A stretch of DNA of 64,000 bases from Burkholderiaceae bacterium 26 (GTDB taxonomy: Bacteria > Pseudomonadota > Gammaproteobacteria > Burkholderiales > Burkholderiaceae): contig JYOB01000016.1 in assembly GCA_000955795.1 (NCBI GenBank), positions 273,908-337,907 of the forward strand, in the 5' to 3' direction. Numbering within the stretch: the first letter of the stretch is position 1; the number at the start of each line of letters is the position of its first letter. The translations under genes were made by a program, and so were the position numbers. A model generated the notes under the pieces. The model saw only the letters and a list, made by a program, of their open reading frames with translations. It did no database searches and had not been told where the DNA came from. Shown piece after piece: positions 6,168 through 15,378 of this stretch.

Positions 6168-8531
6168 TCAAACCCCCTGCATGCGGTTGGCCTGCTCCAG
6201 CGGTGACAACCCTGCCGCCTGCGCCGCCATGGCGCGCTCGCGCTCCAGGTTGCGCTCCAGCTGCAGCTTGCCTGCGCGGTATTGCTTGGGCCACGGCATG
6301 TCGATATAACCGATGCGCGCGGCTTCGTTCAGCGTCCAGGCCGGGTTGGCCAGATGCGGACGCGCCACGGCGCACAGGTCGGCACGGCCGGCAGCAATGA
6401 TGCTGTTGACGTGGTCCGCCTCGGAGATGGCGCCCACGGCGATGGTGGCGATGCCCGCCTCGTTGCGCACGCGGTCGGCAAAGGGCGTCTGAAACATGCG
6501 GCCGTACACCGGCTGTTCCTTCTTGCTGACTTGGCCCGACGAGCAATCGATCATGTCCGCGCCTGCGGCCTTGAAGATGCGCGCGATCTCGACCGCATCG
6601 TCCGGCGTGATACCGCCTTCCACCCAGTCGTGCGCGGAAATACGCACCGACATCGGCTTGTTGCTCGGCCACACCTCACGCACCGCGTGGAAGACTTCAA
6701 GCGGAAAGCGCAGCCGGTTTTCCAGCGCGCCGCCATATTCGTCATTGCGCTGGTTCGTCAGCGGAGAGATGAACGACGACAGCAGATAGCCGTGCGCGCA
6801 GTGCAGCTCCAGCCAGTCAAACCCGGCTTCTGCCGCCAGGCGCGCCGAATGGACGAAGTCGTCCCGCACGCGGTCCATGTCGTCGCGCGTCATGGCGTGC
6901 GACCACTGGCTCACGCCGTCCAGATACTGCTGTGGCGATGCGGAGATCAACGGCCAGTTCTGCCCGTCTTCCAGCGGCAGATCGATGCCCTCCCACGCCA
7001 CGCGCGTCGAGCCCTTGGCACCCGCGTGGCCGAGCTGAATCCCCAGCTTCGCATCGCTGTTGGCATGCACGAACTGCACGATGCGCGCCCAGCCATCACG
7101 GTGTTCGGTGTTCCACAAACCCGGGCAGCCCGGGGTGATGCGCGCATCGGGCGATACGCAGGTCATCTCGGCCATCACCAGGCCCGCACCGCCCATGGCG
7201 CGGGCGCCCAGGTGCACGAGGTGATAGTCCGCCGGTTGGCCGTCTTCGCACGAGTACTGCGCCATGGGCGACACCACCACGCGGTTCTTGAGCGTGACGC
7301 CACGCACCGTGAACGGCGTGAACATCGGCGGCACCGGGCCGTGCTGCGGGCCGCGCGGTGCGCCTGCCTGCTCGGCAATCCAGTCTTCAAACTGTTCGAG
7401 ATAGCGCTTGTCGCGCTGGCGCAGGTTTTCGTGGCTGATGCGCTGGCTGCGCGTGAGCAACGAATACGCAAACTGCTCGGTCGGCAGGTTGGCGTACCGG
7501 TCTACGTTTTCAAACCATTCCGTCGAGTTGCGCGCCGCGTTCTGGATGCGCAGCACTTCCACGCTGCGCACCGCCTCGTAGTGCTCAAGCGCGGCACGCA
7601 AATCGCCAGGGTGCTGGCCGATGCTGCGCGCCAGTTCAATCGAATCTTCCAGCGCCAGCTTGGTCCCGGAGCCGATCGAGAAGTGCGCCGTGTGCGCAGC
7701 GTCGCCCATCAGCACCACGGGCGTGTTGTACGTATTGATATGCACCCAGTGCCGGCAAACCACGCGCGGAAACCGAATCCACTGCGCCGAGCCCCGCAGG
7801 TGCGTGGCGTTGGAAATCAGCTTGTTGCCGTCGAGATACTTGGCGAAGAGCCGCTCGCAATAGGCGATGGCCTCTTCCTTCTCCATGGTCTCCAGCCCGG
7901 CGGCACGCCACACCTCTTCGGGCGCCTCGACAATGAAGGTGGAGGTTTCGTCATCAAAGCGGTACGCATGCGCCTGGAACCAGCCGTGCTCGGTTTCTTC
8001 AAACGCAAAGGTGAAGGCGTCGAACAGCTTGTGCGTGCCAAGCCAGACAAAGCGGCAGCGGCGCGTGTCGATATCGGGTTGATACGTGGCGGCGTACTTG
8101 GTGCGGATGCGGCTGTTCAGGCCGTCGCTGGCAATGATGAGATCCGCATCGGCATAGGCGGTGTCATCTTGCACGTCGGTTTCGAAGACGAGTTTGACGC
8201 CCTCTTCTTCGCAGCGCGCCTGCAGGATGTTCAGCAGCCGCTTGCGCCCGATGCCGCAGAAGCCATGGCCGCCCGAGCGCACCACCTGGCCGCGGATGTG
8301 GACTTCAATGTCGTCCCAGTGGTTGAAGGCGTCGAGGATCTGCGCGGCGCTCTTGGCGTCGGCGCGCTGCAGGTTGCCCAGCGTCTGGTCAGAGAAGACC
8401 ACGCCCCAGCCGAAGGTGTCGTACGGGCGGTTGCGCTCCACCACCGTGATGTCGTGCGACGGGTCCTGCAACTTCATCAGCAGGGCAAAGTACAGGCCAG
8501 CCGGCCCACCACCAATACAGACAATCTTCAT
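6168..8531 (-). CDS. Bifunctional 2-aminobenzoyl-CoA (or salicylyl-CoA) monooxygenase/reductase
   Basis: A 787-residue fusion of two flavoproteins. Residues 1-400 are a class A FAD monooxygenase: [13 protein letters not shown] at 7-19 binds FAD and [20 protein letters not shown] near 280 is the second flavin motif. Residues about 405-780 form an old-yellow-enzyme domain, beginning [20 protein letters not shown], with [20 protein letters not shown] and [14 protein letters not shown] as TIM-barrel landmarks. In Azoarcus evansii this architecture hydroxylates and reduces 2-aminobenzoyl-CoA, breaking aromaticity without ring-cleavage dioxygenase. Databases also name the family salicylyl-CoA 5-hydroxylase. 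It is the first gene of the operon. The accompanying RidA gene makes me favour the amino substrate. Confidence 0.88.
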
Positions 8532-8640
8532 GACAACGGCTCCGCGTTCGATGCGGTATTACCTTAGTCATGAATAGTTTAGTTGTAAAGCAATTTGCTC
8601 AGACGACGCCCCGGGGTTTACACCAAACCGGGCGGCGCCA
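8532..8640 (-). promoter_or_regulatory. Promoter region of the aminobenzoyl-CoA operon
   Basis: The 136 bases between the operon start and the dienelactone hydrolase stop contain a clearly AT-rich stretch (about 8560-8605) in GC-rich surroundings. On the minus strand a TTGCTT and a TATTC element are visible but not at consensus spacing, and GCAATTTGC (8590-8598) is a near-palindrome that a MarR dimer could read. I cannot fix a transcription start. Confidence 0.35.
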
Positions 8641-8667
8641 AGCTCACACCCGCATGTGAGTCCCCGC

Positions 8668-9483
8668 TCAGCTCAAGCGCTGCCGGAAGAACGCGAGGAT
8701 CTCGTCACGGGCCGCGAGCGTGGGCTCCCCGGCTGCGTCGATCAGGTGGGCGGTCACCACGCTATGCGGACAAGGCACATGCTGGGCAAAGAACGACGGC
8801 GGGTGCGGGTGCGCGGCGCTGTCGGGCAGCACACGCCCCACAAAGCGGCTGCCCAGCGCATCCGCATACGCCGCAAAGCGCTGGGCACGGCAGAAGCGGT
8901 CACCCTCAAAACGGTAGGCCAACACGGTCAGGTCTTCCTGCTCCAGCCGCTGGCGCACGGCAGCGGCATCCTCCGGCGCAATCTCGATCCCGCCCGGCTC
9001 GTTCAACGGCAAAGACGGCTGGCACAGCACGGGCGCCAGCATGGCCGGCTCCAACATCATCGTCAGCGCAAAATTGCCTGTGAAGCACATGCCGATGGCC
9101 CCCACGCCCGGGCCACCGCACTCCGCATGGGCCAGCCGCGACAGCGCGCGCAGCCATTGCGTGACCGGGCCCGACTGGTTGGCCGCAAATGCGCGGAACT
9201 CCGCGCTCACGCACGCGTGGCGGAAGACCTCCGCGCCGGCGTCCGCCTCGGGCACTGCGCCATCACGCCCAAACAACGACGGCATGTAGACCGTCAGCCC
9301 CGCATCGCGCACCCAGCGCGCAAACCGCGCCACGTGCGGGCTGATGCCCGGCATCTCGGCCATGACGATCACGCCCGGGCCTGCGCCAGCCACGTACACG
9401 GTTTTTGTAATGCCATCCAAGGTGATCTGGCGGCGCGTGAAGTCTTCCAGGCGGTCGTCCTGCTGCGGGGGCTGGGTTGTCAT
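8668..9483 (-). CDS. Dienelactone hydrolase family protein
   Basis: A 271-residue alpha/beta hydrolase of the dienelactone hydrolase family. The nucleophile elbow is GMCFTGNFAL (about 143-152), with cysteine in the nucleophile place as in true dienelactone hydrolases, and a late HLIDAAGEPT segment supplies the histidine. Such enzymes hydrolyse lactones in aromatic ring-cleavage pathways, though many relatives have other esters as substrates. It is 27 bases downstream of the tautomerase gene and likely co-transcribed with it. Slightly longer than the classical 236-residue enzyme. Confidence 0.83.
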   Translation of the reverse strand: MTTQPPQQDDRLEDFTRRQITLDGITKTVYVAGAGPGVIVMAEMPGISPHVARFARWVRDAGLTVYMPSLFGRDGAVPEADAGAEVFRHACVSAEFRAFAANQSGPVTQWLRALSRLAHAECGGPGVGAIGMCFTGNFALTMMLEPAMLAPVLCQPSLPLNEPGGIEIAPEDAAAVRQRLEQEDLTVLAYRFEGDRFCRAQRFAAYADALGSRFVGRVLPDSAAHPHPPSFFAQHVPCPHSVVTAHLIDAAGEPTLAARDEILAFFRQRLS

Positions 9484-9510
9484 GCATGGGCTCCGTTGGA
9501 ATGGCTTGGC

Positions 9511-9963
9511 TCAGGCGACGAGGTGCTGCAGGTGCGCATAACCCGCCGCCTTGGCGAAATCCGGCAGCGTCCACAGGGCACCGTTCACGCCCCAGGTGCC
9601 GTCGGCCACGTCATGCAGCATCACGGAGGTCACCACGCGCCGGCCATCGGCCGCAGGCAATGCCTGCGAGAAGGCCTCGTGCATCTGCTGAACGAAGCGC
9701 GCACGTGCATCGGCATCCAGCACACCCGCCGGCACGTGGGCGACGACCAGACAGGGCACCATCTGCCTTGCCACGTCCACCCCGCCGCACCACCAGGAGG
9801 CGGCCGGCACGTCTTCCATCACCACCCAGGTTGTCGCGCGCCGGCGAGGATCATCGGGAATCTGCTCGGCCTGCGCGGCAGCCTCGGTGATGTGGCGTGC
9901 GAGCGCCGCGCGTGCGTCGCCGTCAAAGGTGTTTGCAGGAATCTTGACGAGGATGTTTGGCAT
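9511..9963 (-). CDS. Tautomerase superfamily protein
   Basis: I choose the start at 9963 because it gives MPNILVKIPANTF, placing proline directly after the initiator methionine. Tautomerase enzymes use an N-terminal proline (Pro-1) as catalytic base, exposed when methionine is removed. An in-frame ATG at 9990 would add nine residues and bury Pro-1; neither start has a convincing ribosome binding site. The 150-residue protein is about twice the length of 4-oxalocrotonate tautomerase, consistent with a fused two-unit member. Together with the dienelactone hydrolase it suggests handling of a ring-cleavage product. Confidence 0.7.
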   Translation of the reverse strand: MPNILVKIPANTFDGDARAALARHITEAAAQAEQIPDDPRRRATTWVVMEDVPAASWWCGGVDVARQMVPCLVVAHVPAGVLDADARARFVQQMHEAFSQALPAADGRRVVTSVMLHDVADGTWGVNGALWTLPDFAKAAGYAHLQHLVA

Positions 9964-10060
9964 GTGGGCAATCGTCGGCGTTGTTGACATACCTGCATTG
10001 AACGCCTTGGACCGCTAGACTGGCAGTGTCGATTTCGACATCTTTCGGGCAACTTTGGTC

Positions 10061-11032
10061 ATGGCCGATTTCACCATCCTCGTACTCTCGGGCGCCTACG
10101 CCACCAGCGTGGCGGCCACGCTGGACATCTTGCAGGCCGCGTCGACACTCGCCCCGCGCATCAAAGCCGCACGCCCCACGTGGCGCGTACTCTCAGCCGA
10201 CGCACCCAGCGTGCAGCTCAGCAACGGCATGCAGGTGGAGGCCAGCGCGCTGCCACAACGCCCACGCCCCGATGGCAGCACCTGGATCGTGCCCGGCCTG
10301 GGCCTGGACCATGCCGAGATGATTGCCACGCGCCTGGCACAAGACGATGCCCAGCGGGCCGCGCGCGCCCTGGCCGCTCACGTGGCGGCGGGCGGGCAGG
10401 TGGCGGCATCGTGCTCGGCGGTGTTTCTGTTGCAGGCAGCGGGGTTGCTGCCTGGGCGCTGTGTCACCACATCCTGGTGGTTGGCCGCGACGTTGCGGCA
10501 GTGGGAACCCGCATGCACCGTCGACGCAGACCGCATGGTGTGCGCCGACGGCCCGATCACCACCGCCGGCGCCGCCTTTGCGCAGACCGACCTGATGCTG
10601 CACCTGCTGCGCACGCGCTTTGGCGTGGCGCTGGCCGATGCCGTGGGCCGCGTGCTGCTGATCGACGGCCGCCACGCGCAAGCGCCGTTCGTGGTGCCCG
10701 CCATGCTGGCCAACGGCAACGCGCTGATTGCCCGGCTGGTGGCGCGCATTGAAGCCGCCCTGCCCGACCCGCCCAGCGTGCAGACGCTGGCCGACGAGCT
10801 GGCCATGTCGCAACGCACGCTGTCGCGGCACGTGCGCGAGGCCACCGGCAGAAGCACCCTGGCCCTGGTGCAGAGCGTGCGCCTGAACCGCGCCCGCATG
10901 CTGATCGAATCCAGCCGCATGACGATCGACAGCGTGGCCGAAGCCGTAGGCTACGAAGACGCCACCGCGCTGCGGCGCCTGATGCGCAAGGTGTCGGGCA
11001 CCAACCCCAGCCAATACCGCCCGGCCCCCTAG
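10061..11032 (+). CDS. GlxA-type AraC family transcriptional regulator
   Basis: A 323-residue regulator with an N-terminal DJ-1/PfpI (glutamine-amidotransferase-like) domain, seen in FTILVLSGAYATSVAATLDI and the nucleophile-elbow-like VAASCSAVFLLQAAGLLPG near residues 115-135, and a C-terminal AraC helix-turn-helix (LADELAMSQRTLSRHVREAT, then SVAEAVGYEDATALRRLMRK). It is divergent from the tautomerase/dienelactone hydrolase pair, separated by about 100 bases, so it is their likely regulator. ATG 10061 is preferred to a TTG two codons upstream. Confidence 0.87.
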   Translation: MADFTILVLSGAYATSVAATLDILQAASTLAPRIKAARPTWRVLSADAPSVQLSNGMQVEASALPQRPRPDGSTWIVPGLGLDHAEMIATRLAQDDAQRAARALAAHVAAGGQVAASCSAVFLLQAAGLLPGRCVTTSWWLAATLRQWEPACTVDADRMVCADGPITTAGAAFAQTDLMLHLLRTRFGVALADAVGRVLLIDGRHAQAPFVVPAMLANGNALIARLVARIEAALPDPPSVQTLADELAMSQRTLSRHVREATGRSTLALVQSVRLNRARMLIESSRMTIDSVAEAVGYEDATALRRLMRKVSGTNPSQYRPAP

Positions 11033-11142
11033 GGGCCTGGGGTTACAGGCCGTTACACAAGAAGCTGCAGGACTTTAATTTTCGTTTAAGACTTGACGCC
11101 TACCTTGGTCACGTCGCACCCACCCAGACAGGAACTCACACC

Positions 11143-11835
11143 ATGTCACCGCAAGAACAGCAAGCGCTGGAGAACTTCCTAGCCCAACTGACGCAAGCCC
11201 GCGCCGCAGCCAAGGACCCGCAGGCCGAAGCTCGCATCCTCGATGCCGTGGCGCGCCAGCCAGACGCGGCCTATCTGCTCGTGCAGCGCGCCATGCTGCT
11301 CGACGGGGCGCTGGCATCGGCGCAAGCGCAAATCGCCTCGCTGCAAAACCAGTTGCAGGCAGCGCAAGCCGGCCGCGGCACGTCGTTCATGGATTCGGCC
11401 AACAACTGGGGCAGCCACGCCAACAGCCCAGCGCCCAACCCCGCCTACGCCCCGCAGCAGGCCGCCCCCATGCAGATGCCGCCGCAGGCGCAGCCGGCTC
11501 CAGCGCAACCCGCGCGCTCGGGCTTCTTTAGCGGCGGCCTGGGCAGCACGCTCGGCAGCGTCGCGACCACGGCAGCCGGCGTGGCCGGCGGCGCGCTGCT
11601 GTTCCAGGGCATCGAAAACATGTTCCACCACAACAGCGGCGGTGGCGGCTTCTTCGGCCAGCAGCCGGTGATGGGCGGCACCACGGAAACCGTCATCAAC
11701 AACTATTACGACAACGACAGCAGCGGTAACAGCGGCAATACCAACACGGCCTCGCGTGACGACAGCCTCGGCCTGATGGACGACAGCGACCTGGGCGGCA
11801 GTGATTATTCGGATGACGATTCGATGTTGAGCTAG
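11143..11835 (+). CDS. DUF2076 domain-containing protein
   Basis: A 230-residue protein whose N-terminal 75 residues (MSPQEQQALENFLAQLTQAR, then DAVARQPDAAYLLVQRAMLL) form the helical DUF2076 region. A Gln/Pro/Ala-rich linker follows, then a glycine-rich segment with one hydrophobic stretch (GSTLGSVATTAAGVAGGALL, about 132-151), and an acidic, asparagine-rich tail ending in DDDSMLS. Members are thought to be periplasmic or membrane-associated ligand-binding proteins, but no function is established. It stands alone with its own upstream region. Confidence 0.8.
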   Translation: MSPQEQQALENFLAQLTQARAAAKDPQAEARILDAVARQPDAAYLLVQRAMLLDGALASAQAQIASLQNQLQAAQAGRGTSFMDSANNWGSHANSPAPNPAYAPQQAAPMQMPPQAQPAPAQPARSGFFSGGLGSTLGSVATTAAGVAGGALLFQGIENMFHHNSGGGGFFGQQPVMGGTTETVINNYYDNDSSGNSGNTNTASRDDSLGLMDDSDLGGSDYSDDDSMLS

Positions 11836-11844
11836 GCACGCGAC

Positions 11845-11925
11845 GCCCGCCGCGCAGACTCCGGTCCGAGGGCGCGCGGCGGAGGCGTTTCTTCGATTGG
11901 AGTAGAGCATTCCGGCCCGGAATGC
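11845..11925. terminator. Hairpins between convergent genes
   Basis: Two inverted repeats fill the gap between the DUF2076 gene and the orphan gene that runs against it: a GC-rich one pairing CCGCCGCGC (from 11848) with GCGCGCGGCGG, and GCATTCCG/CGGAATGC at 11907-11914 and 11918-11925 around a three-base loop. Neither has a clean T run. They may stop transcription from both sides. Confidence 0.35.
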
Positions 11926-11937
11926 CTTCATCCGTCG

Positions 11938-12291
11938 TTACTGCTCGCTATAGCCGCGCCGCTCGATGGCGGCCAGCACATCCCACGCTTGCGGATCGAC
12001 GTCGTGACCCCCTAGCGACATCGACACATACACATCGATCGCGTCAACAAAGCCCTTCACGAATACGGCTGGAAAGCTGTGAGCCGAGAAACTCTGGAGC
12101 TGCTCGCGCAGCATGCCAGGCCGGCATTGGCCATGCGTGCACATCGCGGTGCGCGTGCGCTTGAGATAGGCCTGGCCCGCGAGCGCGCCGTTCAGGTAAA
12201 TGCGATTCTTGGTGAGCTTGCCCGCTGCCGCTGACATGGCGTCGGCGCGAGGGGCGGAAGGTGGTGGCGAGGGGTATGAAGCGATTGGCAT
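11938..12291 (-). CDS. Orphan 117-residue protein behind a P4-like leader
   Basis: I do not recognise this protein. The start at 12291 follows a strong AAGGAGG at seven-base spacing; a longer frame exists upstream but would run through the structured leader. The protein begins MPIASYPSPPPSAPRADAM, has a basic middle (KLTKNRIYLNGALAGQAYLK, then RTRTAMCTHGQCRPGML) and a helical C-terminal half ending RRGYSEQ. Two cysteines lie close together (CTHGQC). No signal peptide or membrane segment is visible. Its leader at 12292-12530 can sequester the ribosome binding site in a 12-pair helix. Genes behind such leaders in enterobacteria are usually phage-satellite cargo, so this may be a phage-derived effector; this is inference. 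Confidence 0.65.
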   Translation of the reverse strand: MPIASYPSPPPSAPRADAMSAAAGKLTKNRIYLNGALAGQAYLKRTRTAMCTHGQCRPGMLREQLQSFSAHSFPAVFVKGFVDAIDVYVSMSLGGHDVDPQAWDVLAAIERRGYSEQ

Positions 12292-12530
12292 AGAGCCTCC
12301 TTGGGTAATTGGAGACCCGCCGCTCATTTCCACGTGAGGGTGGCGGGCCCGACAGCGGAGGTGGAAAACTGACACCCAAGGAAGCCAGCCAGCCCGTAGG
12401 CTGCTCCGCCCGGCCCGCCATAAAACAGGCGTGCGTAAGCGTCTCGGACAAAATGCTGTCCGCCTTGGGTCAATGTCGGGTTTCCACGCCCGGCTGCCGT
12501 TGGTCCGGCAGCGGAGGGATTATAGCGACG
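12292..12530 (-). promoter_or_regulatory. Structured leader with P4-type A/B/C repeat logic
   Basis: On the minus strand the leader starts near a TATAAT (12524-12519). Block A (about 12463-12513) holds CTCCGCTGCCGG, GTGGAAA and ACCCAAGG in that order. Block C (12296-12363) repeats the same order with CTCCGCTGTCGG, GTGGAAA and ACCCAAGGAGG, the last being the ribosome binding site of the orphan gene. Between them, segment B carries GCTTCCTTGGGT (12374-12385) and TTTCCAC (12361-12367), complementary to both A and C. B:C pairing is 12 pairs with one G.U and masks the binding site; A:B pairing competes. See the finding for the comparison with phage P4. Confidence 0.6.
12361..12445 (-). ncRNA. Candidate CI-like immunity RNA (segment B)
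   Basis: The central part of the leader would fold into a GC-rich stem (AGCC-TACG-GGCT) and ends with the two antisense elements TTCCTTGGGT and TTTTCCAC. In phage P4 the corresponding segment is processed from the leader transcript into a roughly 70-base CI RNA that acts on the flanking repeats. Position and pairing are seen here; processing into a separate RNA is inference. Confidence 0.4.
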
Positions 12531-12581
12531 GGGCCGGCAGCCGAGGTCTGATTTGTCTTTGTCGGGGCCCGGCGCTACACG

Positions 12582-12985
12582 TCCCACCCCCAAACCCTCG
12601 CGCCCCACTCCCAGACACCCAAGCTCGACCCTCAGACACCCAAGCGCCAACCCCAAAGCCCCACGCTCGACCCTCAAACACTCGATCTCGACCCTCCGAG
12701 CGTCGAGCCTCACCGTCAAACACTCGCGCGCCACAGTCTGAGCCTCGCGCTCGACTCTTCGAGCTTCAAATTTTCGACCTCGGAGAGCCGCGTTCCAGCC
12801 TCGAACAGTCGATCGCCACGGTTGTAGGCTGGCGCTCGACAGTTTGACCCTGACGCACGACTCTCGGAGGTCGAAAATTTCGAGCGAAAACAGTGGCGTT
12901 CCACTGTTTGAGTACCGTGGGCGGGCCTCCGACTGTGGAACACGAGTCTTTGAGGCCCAAACGCCGCGCTCAAACCTCCAAGCTC
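12582..12985. repeat. Degenerate seven-base periodic sequence
   Basis: From 12582 to about 12770 the plus strand can be cut into roughly 27 consecutive heptamers in one register, such as CTCGACC, CTCAGAC, ACCCAAG, CGCCAAC, CTCAAAC, CCTCACC, CTCGACT and CTTCGAG, with pyrimidines at positions 2-3 and purines around 5-6. The pattern continues with slips and decay to about 12985 (for example CCTCGAA, CAGTCGA, GCTCGAC, GGTCGAA). A period of seven cannot be a simple codon repeat and no convincing gene lies here. It separates the phage-like leader from the hybrid kinase gene. Confidence 0.7.
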
Positions 12986-12987
12986 GG

Positions 12988-15378
12988 TTATGTATCGGTG
13001 GTCATCTGCTCAAGCGCCATCATCGATTGCAGTGCGTGCTGCAATTGATCGAGCGTGTACGGCTTGCGAAGCGCCGTCCACTTGAACGCAAAGCTGTCGT
13101 GGTCTGGGATGGGGTTGCCAGAAGCGAAGACCACCCGTAGCTCCGGATCCAATTCAGACGCCCGCTGCGCGAGTTCAATGCCGGACATGTCAGGCATGAC
13201 GATGTCGGTAAACAGAACGTCGAAAGAGCCTGCGCGCAGGGTGGCGAGGGCCTGCGCGCCGCTGGCCGCCTGCTGGGGCGTGATCCCGATCAGCGTCAAC
13301 AGCTCGCATACCGCGCCACGCAATGAAGCGTCGTCCTCCACCACGAGAATGCGCAAGCGCGCGGGCTCCCATACCGCGCCTGCGTCGGGGTCGAATTGCG
13401 TGACGTCTTCCTCGGCTGCCGTCGCGTCCACCCCATCATTTCCGAGCACCTGGCGAATCTTGAATGCAAGCTGCTGGCGGCTGTAAGGCTTGCTCAGTAA
13501 CTCGACACCCGGATCGAGCCGCCCGCCATGGACGATGGCGTTCTGCGTGTAGCCAGACGTGTACAGCACCTTCAGGGCGGGCAGCGTCTGAACCGCCCTG
13601 CGCACCATCTCCGGACTGCGCAGTGCCCCCGGCATGACCACGTCGGTAAAGAGCATGTCGATATGCACGCCGCTCTCGACCACGGCCAACGCCTGCTCTG
13701 CGTTGTTGGCCTTGAGCACGGCATAGCCGAGGCCGCTCAACAGATCGACCACGGTTTCGCGAACCTTTGCGTCGTCTTCCACGACGAGGATCGTCTCGTT
13801 GCCGTGCTTGAGCCCGCTGGCCTTGGAGCGTGCGGGCTCGACCGCCATGCCGGTGGAACGGGGCAGATAGACCCGCACGGTCGTGCCCTCCCCATCCTCG
13901 CTGTAGAGCCGGATATGGCCGCCGCTCTGCTTGACGAATCCGTAAGCCATGCTGAGCCCGAGCCCCGTTCCCTCTCCCTCGGGCTTGGTGCTGAAGAACG
14001 GATCGAACGCCTGCTCCAGCACTTGGGGGCTCATGCCCGTGCCGGTATCCGTGACGGCCAGCATGACGTACTGCCCCGCCGGCACATCGGGCAGCGCTAC
14101 TACATAGTCATCGTCCAGCGTGGCATTGGAGAGTTCGAGCGTGAGCTTGCCGCCTTCGGGCATCGCATCCCGCGCGTTGATCGCCAGATTCAGGATGACG
14201 TTTTCCAGCTGATGCGGATCGACCGCAATATTCCAAAGGCCGCCCGCAACCACCGATTCGATCTCGACCGCTTCGCCCAGTGCCCGGCGCAACAAGTCGT
14301 CCATGGCGCGCAGTTGGCGCGCGGGGTTGATCACGACAGGCGCGAGCGGTTGCTGACGGCCGAAGGCAAGCAACTGGGCGGCGAGCTTGGCGCCACGATC
14401 AACGGCGTCGATGGCGTTACTGAGCCGCTCGGCGCTCCAGCCATCACGGCCGTGCCGGCTTTCGAGCAGTTCGAGATTGCCCCGAAGCACCTGCAGTACG
14501 TTGTTGAAGTCATGCGCAACGCCGCCGGTGAGTTTGCCCAGCGCTTCCATCTTCTGGGCCTGGAACAGCGCCCTTTGCGTTTGCTCGAGCTGCTCGCTGG
14601 CGCGTCGCCGCTCCGTAATGTCGCGGGTGATCTTCGCAAACCCGACCAGCACACCCTCTTCGTAGATGGCATCGATGATGACGTGCGCGAAGAAACGGCT
14701 TCCATCACGCCGTACGCGCCAGCCTTCTGCCTCGAAGCGCCCGTCGCGCCGGGCGGTCTCCAGGCCCCGGAACGGTACGCCGGCCGCGACATCCTCTGGC
14801 GTATAAAAGCGCGAAAAATGCGAACCGATGATCTCGGCCTCGGTATAGCCCTTGATGCGCCGCGCCCCGGCATTCCAACTGCTGATGTGCCCGTCGGTCG
14901 ACAGCATGAAGATGGCGTAGTCCGTCACGCCCTGAACGAGCAGGCGGAAGTTGCGCTCGCTCTTCAGCACGGCGTCGTGCGCGGCCTTCTTGTCACTCAC
15001 ATCGCTGATCACGGTACCGAACCCGATCAACGCGTTGGTGCTGTCACGGAGTGCCGTCATGGCGACGTTCGCCCAGAACAGCGAACCGTCCTTGCGCATG
15101 CGCCATCCCTCCTCGACATGCCGGCCTGTCTTGGCGGCGGCATGCAGCGCGGCTTCGGGCGCACCTGAGGCTCGGCCCTCCGGCGGATACAAAAGTGCGA
15201 ACGGCTGGCCAATAATCTCGTCCGGCCGATAGCCCTGCATGCATTCGCCGCCCGGATTCCACGTTGAAACAATGCCCTGTATCGACAGTGCAAAGATGGA
15301 GTAATCGGAGGTCAATTCAGCCCACAGCCGAAGCCATGTAGAGCCAAATTCGGAGGACGGAGAAGCGGCGTCGTTCAT
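12988..15378 (-). CDS. Hybrid sensor histidine kinase (PAS-PAS-HisKA-HATPase-REC-REC)
   Basis: A 796-residue cytoplasmic hybrid kinase with no membrane segments. Two PAS domains (about 20-135 and 145-262) are followed by HisKA with the phospho-accepting histidine in GKLTGGVAHDFNNVLQVLRG (about 288), an HATPase domain with NLAINARDAMPEGG and GEGTGLGLSMAYGFVKQSGG, and two receiver domains with aspartates in DMLFTDVVMPG (about 576) and DVLFTDIVMPD (about 726). Paired PAS domains point to sensing of redox, light or a small ligand. No response regulator with an output domain is adjacent. It is divergent from another kinase gene at 15644. Confidence 0.9.
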   Translation of the reverse strand: MNDAASPSSEFGSTWLRLWAELTSDYSIFALSIQGIVSTWNPGGECMQGYRPDEIIGQPFALLYPPEGRASGAPEAALHAAAKTGRHVEEGWRMRKDGSLFWANVAMTALRDSTNALIGFGTVISDVSDKKAAHDAVLKSERNFRLLVQGVTDYAIFMLSTDGHISSWNAGARRIKGYTEAEIIGSHFSRFYTPEDVAAGVPFRGLETARRDGRFEAEGWRVRRDGSRFFAHVIIDAIYEEGVLVGFAKITRDITERRRASEQLEQTQRALFQAQKMEALGKLTGGVAHDFNNVLQVLRGNLELLESRHGRDGWSAERLSNAIDAVDRGAKLAAQLLAFGRQQPLAPVVINPARQLRAMDDLLRRALGEAVEIESVVAGGLWNIAVDPHQLENVILNLAINARDAMPEGGKLTLELSNATLDDDYVVALPDVPAGQYVMLAVTDTGTGMSPQVLEQAFDPFFSTKPEGEGTGLGLSMAYGFVKQSGGHIRLYSEDGEGTTVRVYLPRSTGMAVEPARSKASGLKHGNETILVVEDDAKVRETVVDLLSGLGYAVLKANNAEQALAVVESGVHIDMLFTDVVMPGALRSPEMVRRAVQTLPALKVLYTSGYTQNAIVHGGRLDPGVELLSKPYSRQQLAFKIRQVLGNDGVDATAAEEDVTQFDPDAGAVWEPARLRILVVEDDASLRGAVCELLTLIGITPQQAASGAQALATLRAGSFDVLFTDIVMPDMSGIELAQRASELDPELRVVFASGNPIPDHDSFAFKWTALRKPYTLDQLQHALQSMMALEQMTTDT

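Follow-up and report, generated by a model that had tools for sequence, protein, structure and literature searches.

The CI RNA of satellite phage P4 is a single RNA with two complementary target sites that confers immunity and has been described as ending transcription. Multi-copy families of type I toxin-antitoxin systems, such as ibs/sib and ldr/rdl, rely on an antisense RNA made from the opposite strand. In phages P1 and P7, the C4 RNA is described as being cut from a longer RNA, after which its b' segment pairs with a ribosome-binding site and its a' segment with a site upstream (PMC5320573, PMC12197685). C4 of P1 and P7 silences the antirepressor, and the two RNAs, 4 nt apart in the target-setting region, are described as showing no cross-reaction (PMC5320573). 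The nearest precedent for the locus discussed here, to the extent covered by the excerpts of the source used, is formed by the Group 1 C4-like sRNAs of A. baumannii. These are numerous, highly expressed and apparently processed from longer transcripts, and a role against incoming phages or on host mRNAs has been proposed (PMC5320573). The prediction of C4 in Burkholderiales goes back to Weinberg et al. 2010 (PMC5320573, PMC2864571). No paper on C4 antisense RNA in Ralstonia was found in the literature searched; most subscription papers lie outside that scope, and absence there is not proof.

The window analysed here is the whole stretch of 64,000 nucleotides. On its minus strand, a gene for 117 residues follows a leader whose parts are ordered as TATAAT, a1 and b1, C4, a2, b2 on the Shine-Dalgarno sequence and then ATG (Table 1). 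The RNA around segment B is, as judged by the Rfam covariance model, a C4 antisense RNA: the segment lies inside a match to RF01695 of 72.3 bits, against a curated cut-off of 45. Two-sided compensatory change was seen in at least one of 26 sequences for 17 of the 22 predicted C4 pairs (alignment A2). Furthermore, the stem begins with GG, which is also given for the published RNase P cleavage site (PMC5320573). The c4-a1b1 model RF03163 scores 32 bits over block A (12473-12525), under its cut-off of 46.7; the a1 and b1 runs there are 7 and 8 nt. A sub-threshold match to isrK RNA (33.2 bits, cut-off 50) covers the a1/b1 leader at 12448-12512 on the minus strand, as might be seen if this leader had kinship with that Salmonella prophage RNA.

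Table 1. Predicted features of the C4 cassette in the window (positions counted from its first letter).
Feature	Position	Strand	Basis or remark
TATAAT, -10 promoter-like element of putative leader transcript	12519-12524	minus	sequence
a1 target word GTGGAAA (block A)	12481-12487	minus	7 nt complementary to a'
b1 target word ACCCAAGG (block A)	12463-12470	minus	8 nt complementary to b'
C4 antisense RNA	12336-12425	minus	Rfam RF01695, 72.3 bits, E 3.8e-12
b' loop of C4, the key, TTCCTTGGGT (block B)	12374-12383	minus	9 nt complementary to b2
a' stretch of C4, TTTTCCACC (block B)	12360-12368	minus	7 nt complementary to a2 and a1
a2 target word GTGGAAA (block C)	12327-12333	minus	7 nt complementary to a'
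b2 target ACCCAAGGA (block C)	12298-12306	minus	overlaps AAGGAGG; 9-nt run with b'
Ribosome-binding site AAGGAGG	12296-12302	minus	overlapped by b2
Start codon ATG of 117-residue gene	12289-12291	minus	sequence
Gene for 117 residues, paralogous family, predicted to be silenced by C4	11938-12291	minus	sequence

The sequence-only reading had taken this region for a P4-type immunity leader. An immunity-type RNA with two target sites is indeed present, but the RNA is C4 and not the P4 CI RNA; "P4-like logic" was correct in kind, and the name C4 suits the RNA better. The locus shares with P4 the principle of a single RNA with two complementary targets. The differences are that P4 is described as ending transcription and that no P4 replication or integrase protein was seen among the 13 flanking proteins scanned between 1.1 and 22.1 kb of the window. 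The same reading had placed the A, B and C words on the minus strand and segment B as complementary to A and C. Both statements agree with the computed contiguous Watson-Crick runs, which are 9 for b'-b2, 8 for b'-b1, 7 for a'-a2 and 7 for a'-a1. In 2000 dinucleotide shuffles of the flanks, these runs were reached singly by 4, 55, 69 and 212, and all four together by none. The pairing of B with C said to hide the ribosome-binding site was likewise borne out, with b2 lying over that site. Two details needed correction. The proposed 12-pair B:C helix is present but includes one U-G pair, and of the three words repeated in A and C, all present, the first of block C (CTCCGCTGTCGG) forms the 3' arm of C4's own stem instead of serving as a target.

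These features point, with high probability, to a self-silencing cassette in which C4 from a shared transcript blocks translation of the downstream gene. One transcript from a promoter just upstream would carry a1/b1, C4, a2/b2 and the gene, and C4 would be excised from it, by analogy with P1/P7 and Acinetobacter. With the b' loop on b2 covering the ribosome-binding site and a' on a2, translation of the 117-residue protein would then stop. The a1/b1 words, pairing with the same keys, could hold unprocessed C4 and leave the ribosome site free. This core mechanism is strongly indicated by the C4 identity, the fold, the matching sites, the promoter-like box, the purifying selection and the genus-wide family described below.

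An in-cis switch, as the sequence-only reading had proposed, would set expression by A:B versus B:C pairing within one molecule and would need no free C4. The lowest-energy fold of the leader (12280-12520) is compatible with such a switch: A is paired with B and the ribosome site is open, with a z of -2.67 and equally stable folds in 1 of 200 shuffles. In the published descriptions, as excerpted, C4 works as a processed RNA that pairs with its target mRNA at the ribosome site, and thus not only in cis (PMC5320573, PMC12197685). C4 also has its own closed, covarying fold, and orphan C4s that have lost the match to b1 and the ribosome site (see below) keep that fold, which suggests action in trans. 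A purely in-cis switch is therefore very unlikely. Under the self-silencing reading, the whole-leader fold means that a1/b1 may hold the unprocessed C4, and silencing would then need the processed RNA in trans.

Relatives of the 117-residue protein were found in 16 of 41 genomes, all of the genus Ralstonia. The gene had been regarded as an orphan; it is instead one of ten family matches within this genome. A scan of named genomes gave 61 family loci: records titled Ralstonia hold 56, a single Burkholderiaceae bin four, and an apparently mis-sorted bin labelled Wolfebacteria one. Neither Pfam (E up to 1) nor NCBIfam (E up to 10) has a family for the protein, its best PHROG (E 0.19) is not significant, and PDB sequences gave nothing convincing. 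Antirepressor identity, as in the P1/P7 operon, was considered and set aside on the lack of a Pfam or NCBIfam family and of a significant PHROG. Single family members show scattered weak Pfam matches, the best at 0.0023. The gene differs from its orthologues in G003 and G011 at 18 and 41 of 354 bases, with dN/dS of 0.08 and 0.17, and appears to be under purifying selection. All 90 C4 bases are identical across the three genomes with an intact copy at the site, these two included.

The surroundings of the cassette are those of an ordinary chromosome. The 13 flanking proteins include fatty-acid and flavin enzymes, a hydrolase, a tautomerase, an AraC-type regulator, DUF2076, two histidine kinases, a symporter and an autotransporter. 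A phage or integrase domain was found in none of these 13 (1.1-22.1 kb), in agreement with the earlier remark that no integrase or phage genes are nearby. Between the DUF2076 gene and the kinase, the cassette is present in G003 and G011. There is no cassette in that interval in G005, G009 and G010, which carry LysR-type and flavodoxin-like genes instead (named from translations), with further genes in G010. G015 has the gene at the window site, and its match to the window stops at 12358, inside C4. The match stops at the same position in Ralstonia sp. NFACC01 (L067/L150), whose copy of the window gene is 97% identical; there, about 325 bases of other sequence follow up to the contig end. G008 holds two C4s at the window site, one followed by a gene fragment and the other, with the window's loop, without a gene. 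Upstream of the cassette, degenerate 21-base tandem repeats lie at 12560-12980, of which one array was detected (12615-12696, 3.9 copies); similar repeat-like text was also seen by eye upstream of the cassettes in L025, L031 and L036.

Could such cassettes be decayed relics of prophage immunity that persist by chance and serve no present function? Phages are known to carry C4, proviral contigs contain C4s as well (with an own downstream run of at least 7 in 25 of the 37 shown), and three C4 cassettes of this genome precede genes that look alike, of which the one scanned has a Bro-N domain. Set against this origin are the low dN/dS values and the unchanged C4 reported above, as well as the absence of phage or integrase domains from the 13 flanking proteins. 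In addition, no relative of the protein was found in 50,697 phage records, in plasmids or in two viral-contig scans, where records close to this genome may be missing. Functionless relics are thus an unlikely explanation. The proviral contigs (L322-L398) hold 75 C4 matches, of which 37 were examined, and the 25 with such a run stand before Bro-N-like (by eye) or small proteins; one high-scoring C4 (L339, 92.1 bits) has an own run of only 5. Ralstonia lock matches to viral-contig targets were also considered; 3 of 37 C4s fit, loosely, in an uncontrolled comparison that is given no weight.

C4 was found in 16 of 16 Ralstonia genomes searched, with 2-20 matches each and at least 191 in all. Outside the genus, it was found in 5 of 25 other genomes searched, with 1-3 each. 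Some of the C4 matches score below the family cut-off. From the at least 191, 146 C4s were examined, namely 129 among the matches listed and 17 of this genome. A match to the protein family lies at most 300 nt downstream in 104 of the 146, one of these being only a fragment. Viewed from the genes, a full C4 lies upstream on the same strand at 57 of 61 loci, and at one more it is cut by a contig end. No C4 was found at L067, L102 and L118, and L102 has only 264 nt upstream. When 14 family-gene loci without a listed C4 (some of them among the named loci) were rechecked, C4 was present in nine and absent at E 0.1 in five, two of which match only part of the protein. TATAAT stands 96-128 nt before C4 in 83 of the 102 gene-bearing cassettes with at least 190 nt upstream, against about 0.005 per cassette expected by base composition.

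C4 also stands ahead of other genes: some encode Bro-N-like proteins (PF02498 in the one scanned), some a family whose members mostly have 131-135 residues, and some small unmatched proteins. In G000:C41 (about 8400-13500), L029, L024 and L003 form three consecutive C4-controlled genes, each with its own lock; the 220-residue one has the Bro-N domain, and the other two look alike. In a C4-linked class of 64 residues (L033, L035 and related loci), the key fits the upstream site only, or neither; G010 has two C4s of this class with an identical lock.

The Ralstonia C4s resemble those of P1 and P7 in their fold, in the pairs of a' and b' with their targets and in the position of b' on the ribosome site. 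They differ in preceding a protein without known domain, found only in Ralstonia in these searches, and in lying among chromosomal genes, with up to 20 C4 matches per genome, about 60 loops and stand-alone copies. Elsewhere in this genome, a C4 lies ahead of a Bro-N gene. With type I toxin-antitoxin families they share several chromosomal copies, each with its own RNA. However, the opposite-strand antisense layout of those systems, also considered, was not found: C4 and gene lie on the same strand, with a promoter-like box upstream of both.

While the C4 scaffold is constant, its loop is variable, and 61 distinct loops were found among non-orphan C4s. Duplex energy ranked the own site first in only 9 of 24 loops and is a poor test because the GC-rich loop flanks pair widely; it was replaced by contiguous runs with permuted partners. 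Five loops misread by the stem finder were assigned manually. A run of at least 7 with the own b2 was found for 43 of 61 loops, compared to 105 of 3660 non-cognate pairings, and with the own b1 for 38 of 61, compared to 86 of 3660. The mean own-site run was reached by none of 20,000 permutations in the b2 test and the b1 test alike. The covariation that the sequence-only reading expected in homologues is thus positive for most loops, in the pairs of alignment A2 and in this 61-loop run test. The opposite case, a segment B unmatched to A and C, which that reading had counted against itself, occurs in part: 10 of the 61 loops have no 7-nt fit to either own site, and 8 (class 2) fit only their own upstream site, b1. 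Since these 10 and 8 loops have no own b2 fit, a block of the ribosome site is not valid for all, and class 2 may be a second C4 class, perhaps working differently.

The fit to the own gene also bears on ordinary host sRNA regulation, by which C4s would have been recruited for other host mRNAs in trans and the local gene would be incidental. Chromosomal C4-like RNAs that are many, expressed and apparently processed are described in A. baumannii (PMC5320573), orphan C4s exist without a gene of their own, and class 2 C4s are unmatched to their own ribosome site. Nevertheless, for 43 of 61 loops the fit is to the ribosome-binding region of the next gene downstream, and a role elsewhere would not preserve this own fit. 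Recruitment for other mRNAs is improbable.

Locks that are shared between C4s were counted by treating two loops as the same when one, T-trimmed at its ends, is contained in the other. Among proteins at least 85% alike, a loop is shared in none of 42 pairs within a genome; between genomes, it is shared in 66 of 101 pairs at the same site and in 46 of 441 at other sites. The difference between 0/42 and 46/441 has a Fisher p of 0.024, although the pairs depend on one another and part of the "other site" group truly belongs to one site. In the 80-85% protein band, 2 of 10 within-genome pairs share a loop. For all C4s, the loop is shared in 5 of 756 within-genome pairs and 269 of 9829 between-genome pairs; four of these five differ in a', and one (G010, 64-residue class) is identical in both. 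These counts are no more than suggestive of lock exclusion within one genome.

The turnover of locks can be followed at one chromosomal site, recognised in eight genomes by the flanks, or at least the downstream flank, in common with G000:C6. At this site, the active lock is TCCTTGGGA in G000, G008, G009 and G015, GTTCTCTAAG in G005, TTCCTGTGAG in G003 and G011 and TTCTCGGAG in G010. Species thus carry different active locks at one chromosomal site. Behind the gene, G003, G010 and G015 each have two further C4s that lack a gene, and none was found after the gene in the other five of the eight genomes. The loops of these orphans are GTTCTCTAAG and TTCTCGGAG in G003, GTTCTCTAAG and TTCCTGTGAG in G010, and TTCCTGTGAG and TTCTCGGAG in G015. 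In alignments, the same two orphan scaffolds, with marker bases, recur in all three arrays. The b'/a' stretch of position 2 in G010 and position 1 in G015 equals that of the TTCCTGTGAG lock, and the remnant behind position 2 in G010 still resembles the TTCTCGGAG cassette. By these alignments, the b'/a' stretch of these two orphans has been overwritten by another lock. TTCCTGTGAG is thus present as an orphan key in both array genomes with another active lock (G010 and G015); the genomes without arrays hold no such record.

Altogether, 13 of the 146 C4s examined are orphans without a gene and a ribosome-site match. The rule was no family gene and short runs to the own sites. Two orphans were added manually, G015:C24:9473 (a2 kept, 7-nt run past the old start codon) and G008:C2:538172 (gene fragment), and two class 2 C4s of G010:C1 were removed manually because a1 is kept; two orphans retain an a1 run of 6 or 7 nt. 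Orphan C4 scores are 82.0-92.4 bits for the six in the three arrays, 70.7 for G010:C2:3145525, 93.9 and 74.1 in G008 and 58.5-71.2 in a second gene family. In that family, G003, G010 and G012 carry orphan C4s with three different loops after the end of a LuxR-like gene (read from translation) and ahead of the active cassette. In G000 and G005 these orphans have decayed, G009 and G015 lack them, and the site was not recognised in G008 and G002. Two of the three loops occur in non-orphan C4s elsewhere. For 12 of the 13 orphans, a non-orphan C4 in another genome has the same loop, and for 11, this holds for the loop together with the first 8 bases of a'. Within their own genome, two orphans have the loop, though with a different a', in common with a non-orphan C4, and none has the complete lock in common with one. 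TATAAT lies 104 or 105 nt upstream of the first orphan in each of the three arrays; among the others, it is nearer in two more and absent within 200 nt in eight.

How much of this pattern can be attributed to gene conversion alone, among homologous cassettes, without selection for immunity and with the orphans as passive bystanders? C4 scaffolds offer about 90 nt of homology, short b'/a' tracts were swapped, and conversion of the coding part is suggested by nearly identical proteins that stand behind different locks within a genome. In sister genomes, the orphans have decayed or are missing, and for 8 of 13 no TATAAT lies within 200 nt. Mere loss of the gene from orthologous cassettes accounts for part of the orphan pattern. 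What plain loss leaves unexplained is the surviving C4, sometimes the promoter box, and the overwritten specificity of two orphans. Against passive bystanders, the orphans keep good model scores (58.5-93.9 bits) without a gene or ribosome-site target, the first orphans of the three arrays retain TATAAT at 104 or 105 nt, and 0 of 13 duplicate a full non-orphan lock of their own genome. Conversion alone is a serious contender, with a probability somewhat short of even.

The broader form of the self-silencing reading goes further. If C4 acts in trans, a cassette would be silent in a cell that makes its key and briefly expressed in a cell that does not. An entering cassette would be expressed until C4 accumulates, and a cell with the key would be immune. 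It would follow that cassettes with the same lock exclude each other and that new locks are favoured. Orphan C4s would then represent retained immunity. Accepted only tentatively, and with the balance leaning against it, Ralstonia may have an RNA-based exclusion between selfish or harmful cassettes, in which stand-alone C4 arrays give immunity against cassettes not carried, their specificity is rewritten by b'/a' exchange and the displaced lock is kept as an orphan key. The A. baumannii Group 1 sRNAs are alike in that many chromosomal C4-like RNAs with a variable a' region occur per genome. As far as the excerpts of that account extend, their description includes no gene family downstream that matches the RNA, no exclusivity of locks and no exchange between active and orphan copies, and it leaves their targets open (PMC5320573).

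The swapped RNA locks are an unusually direct evolutionary record. If the proposal is true, a phage RNA has given rise to about 60 antisense keys that diversified in nature on a single scaffold, a set which would be useful for studying how RNA specificity evolves without cross-talk. The swaps between active and orphan locks at one site make it testable whether a stand-alone C4 protects against cassettes that are not carried. Furthermore, the proposal would provide a concrete hypothesis for the many C4-like RNAs seen to be expressed in Acinetobacter.
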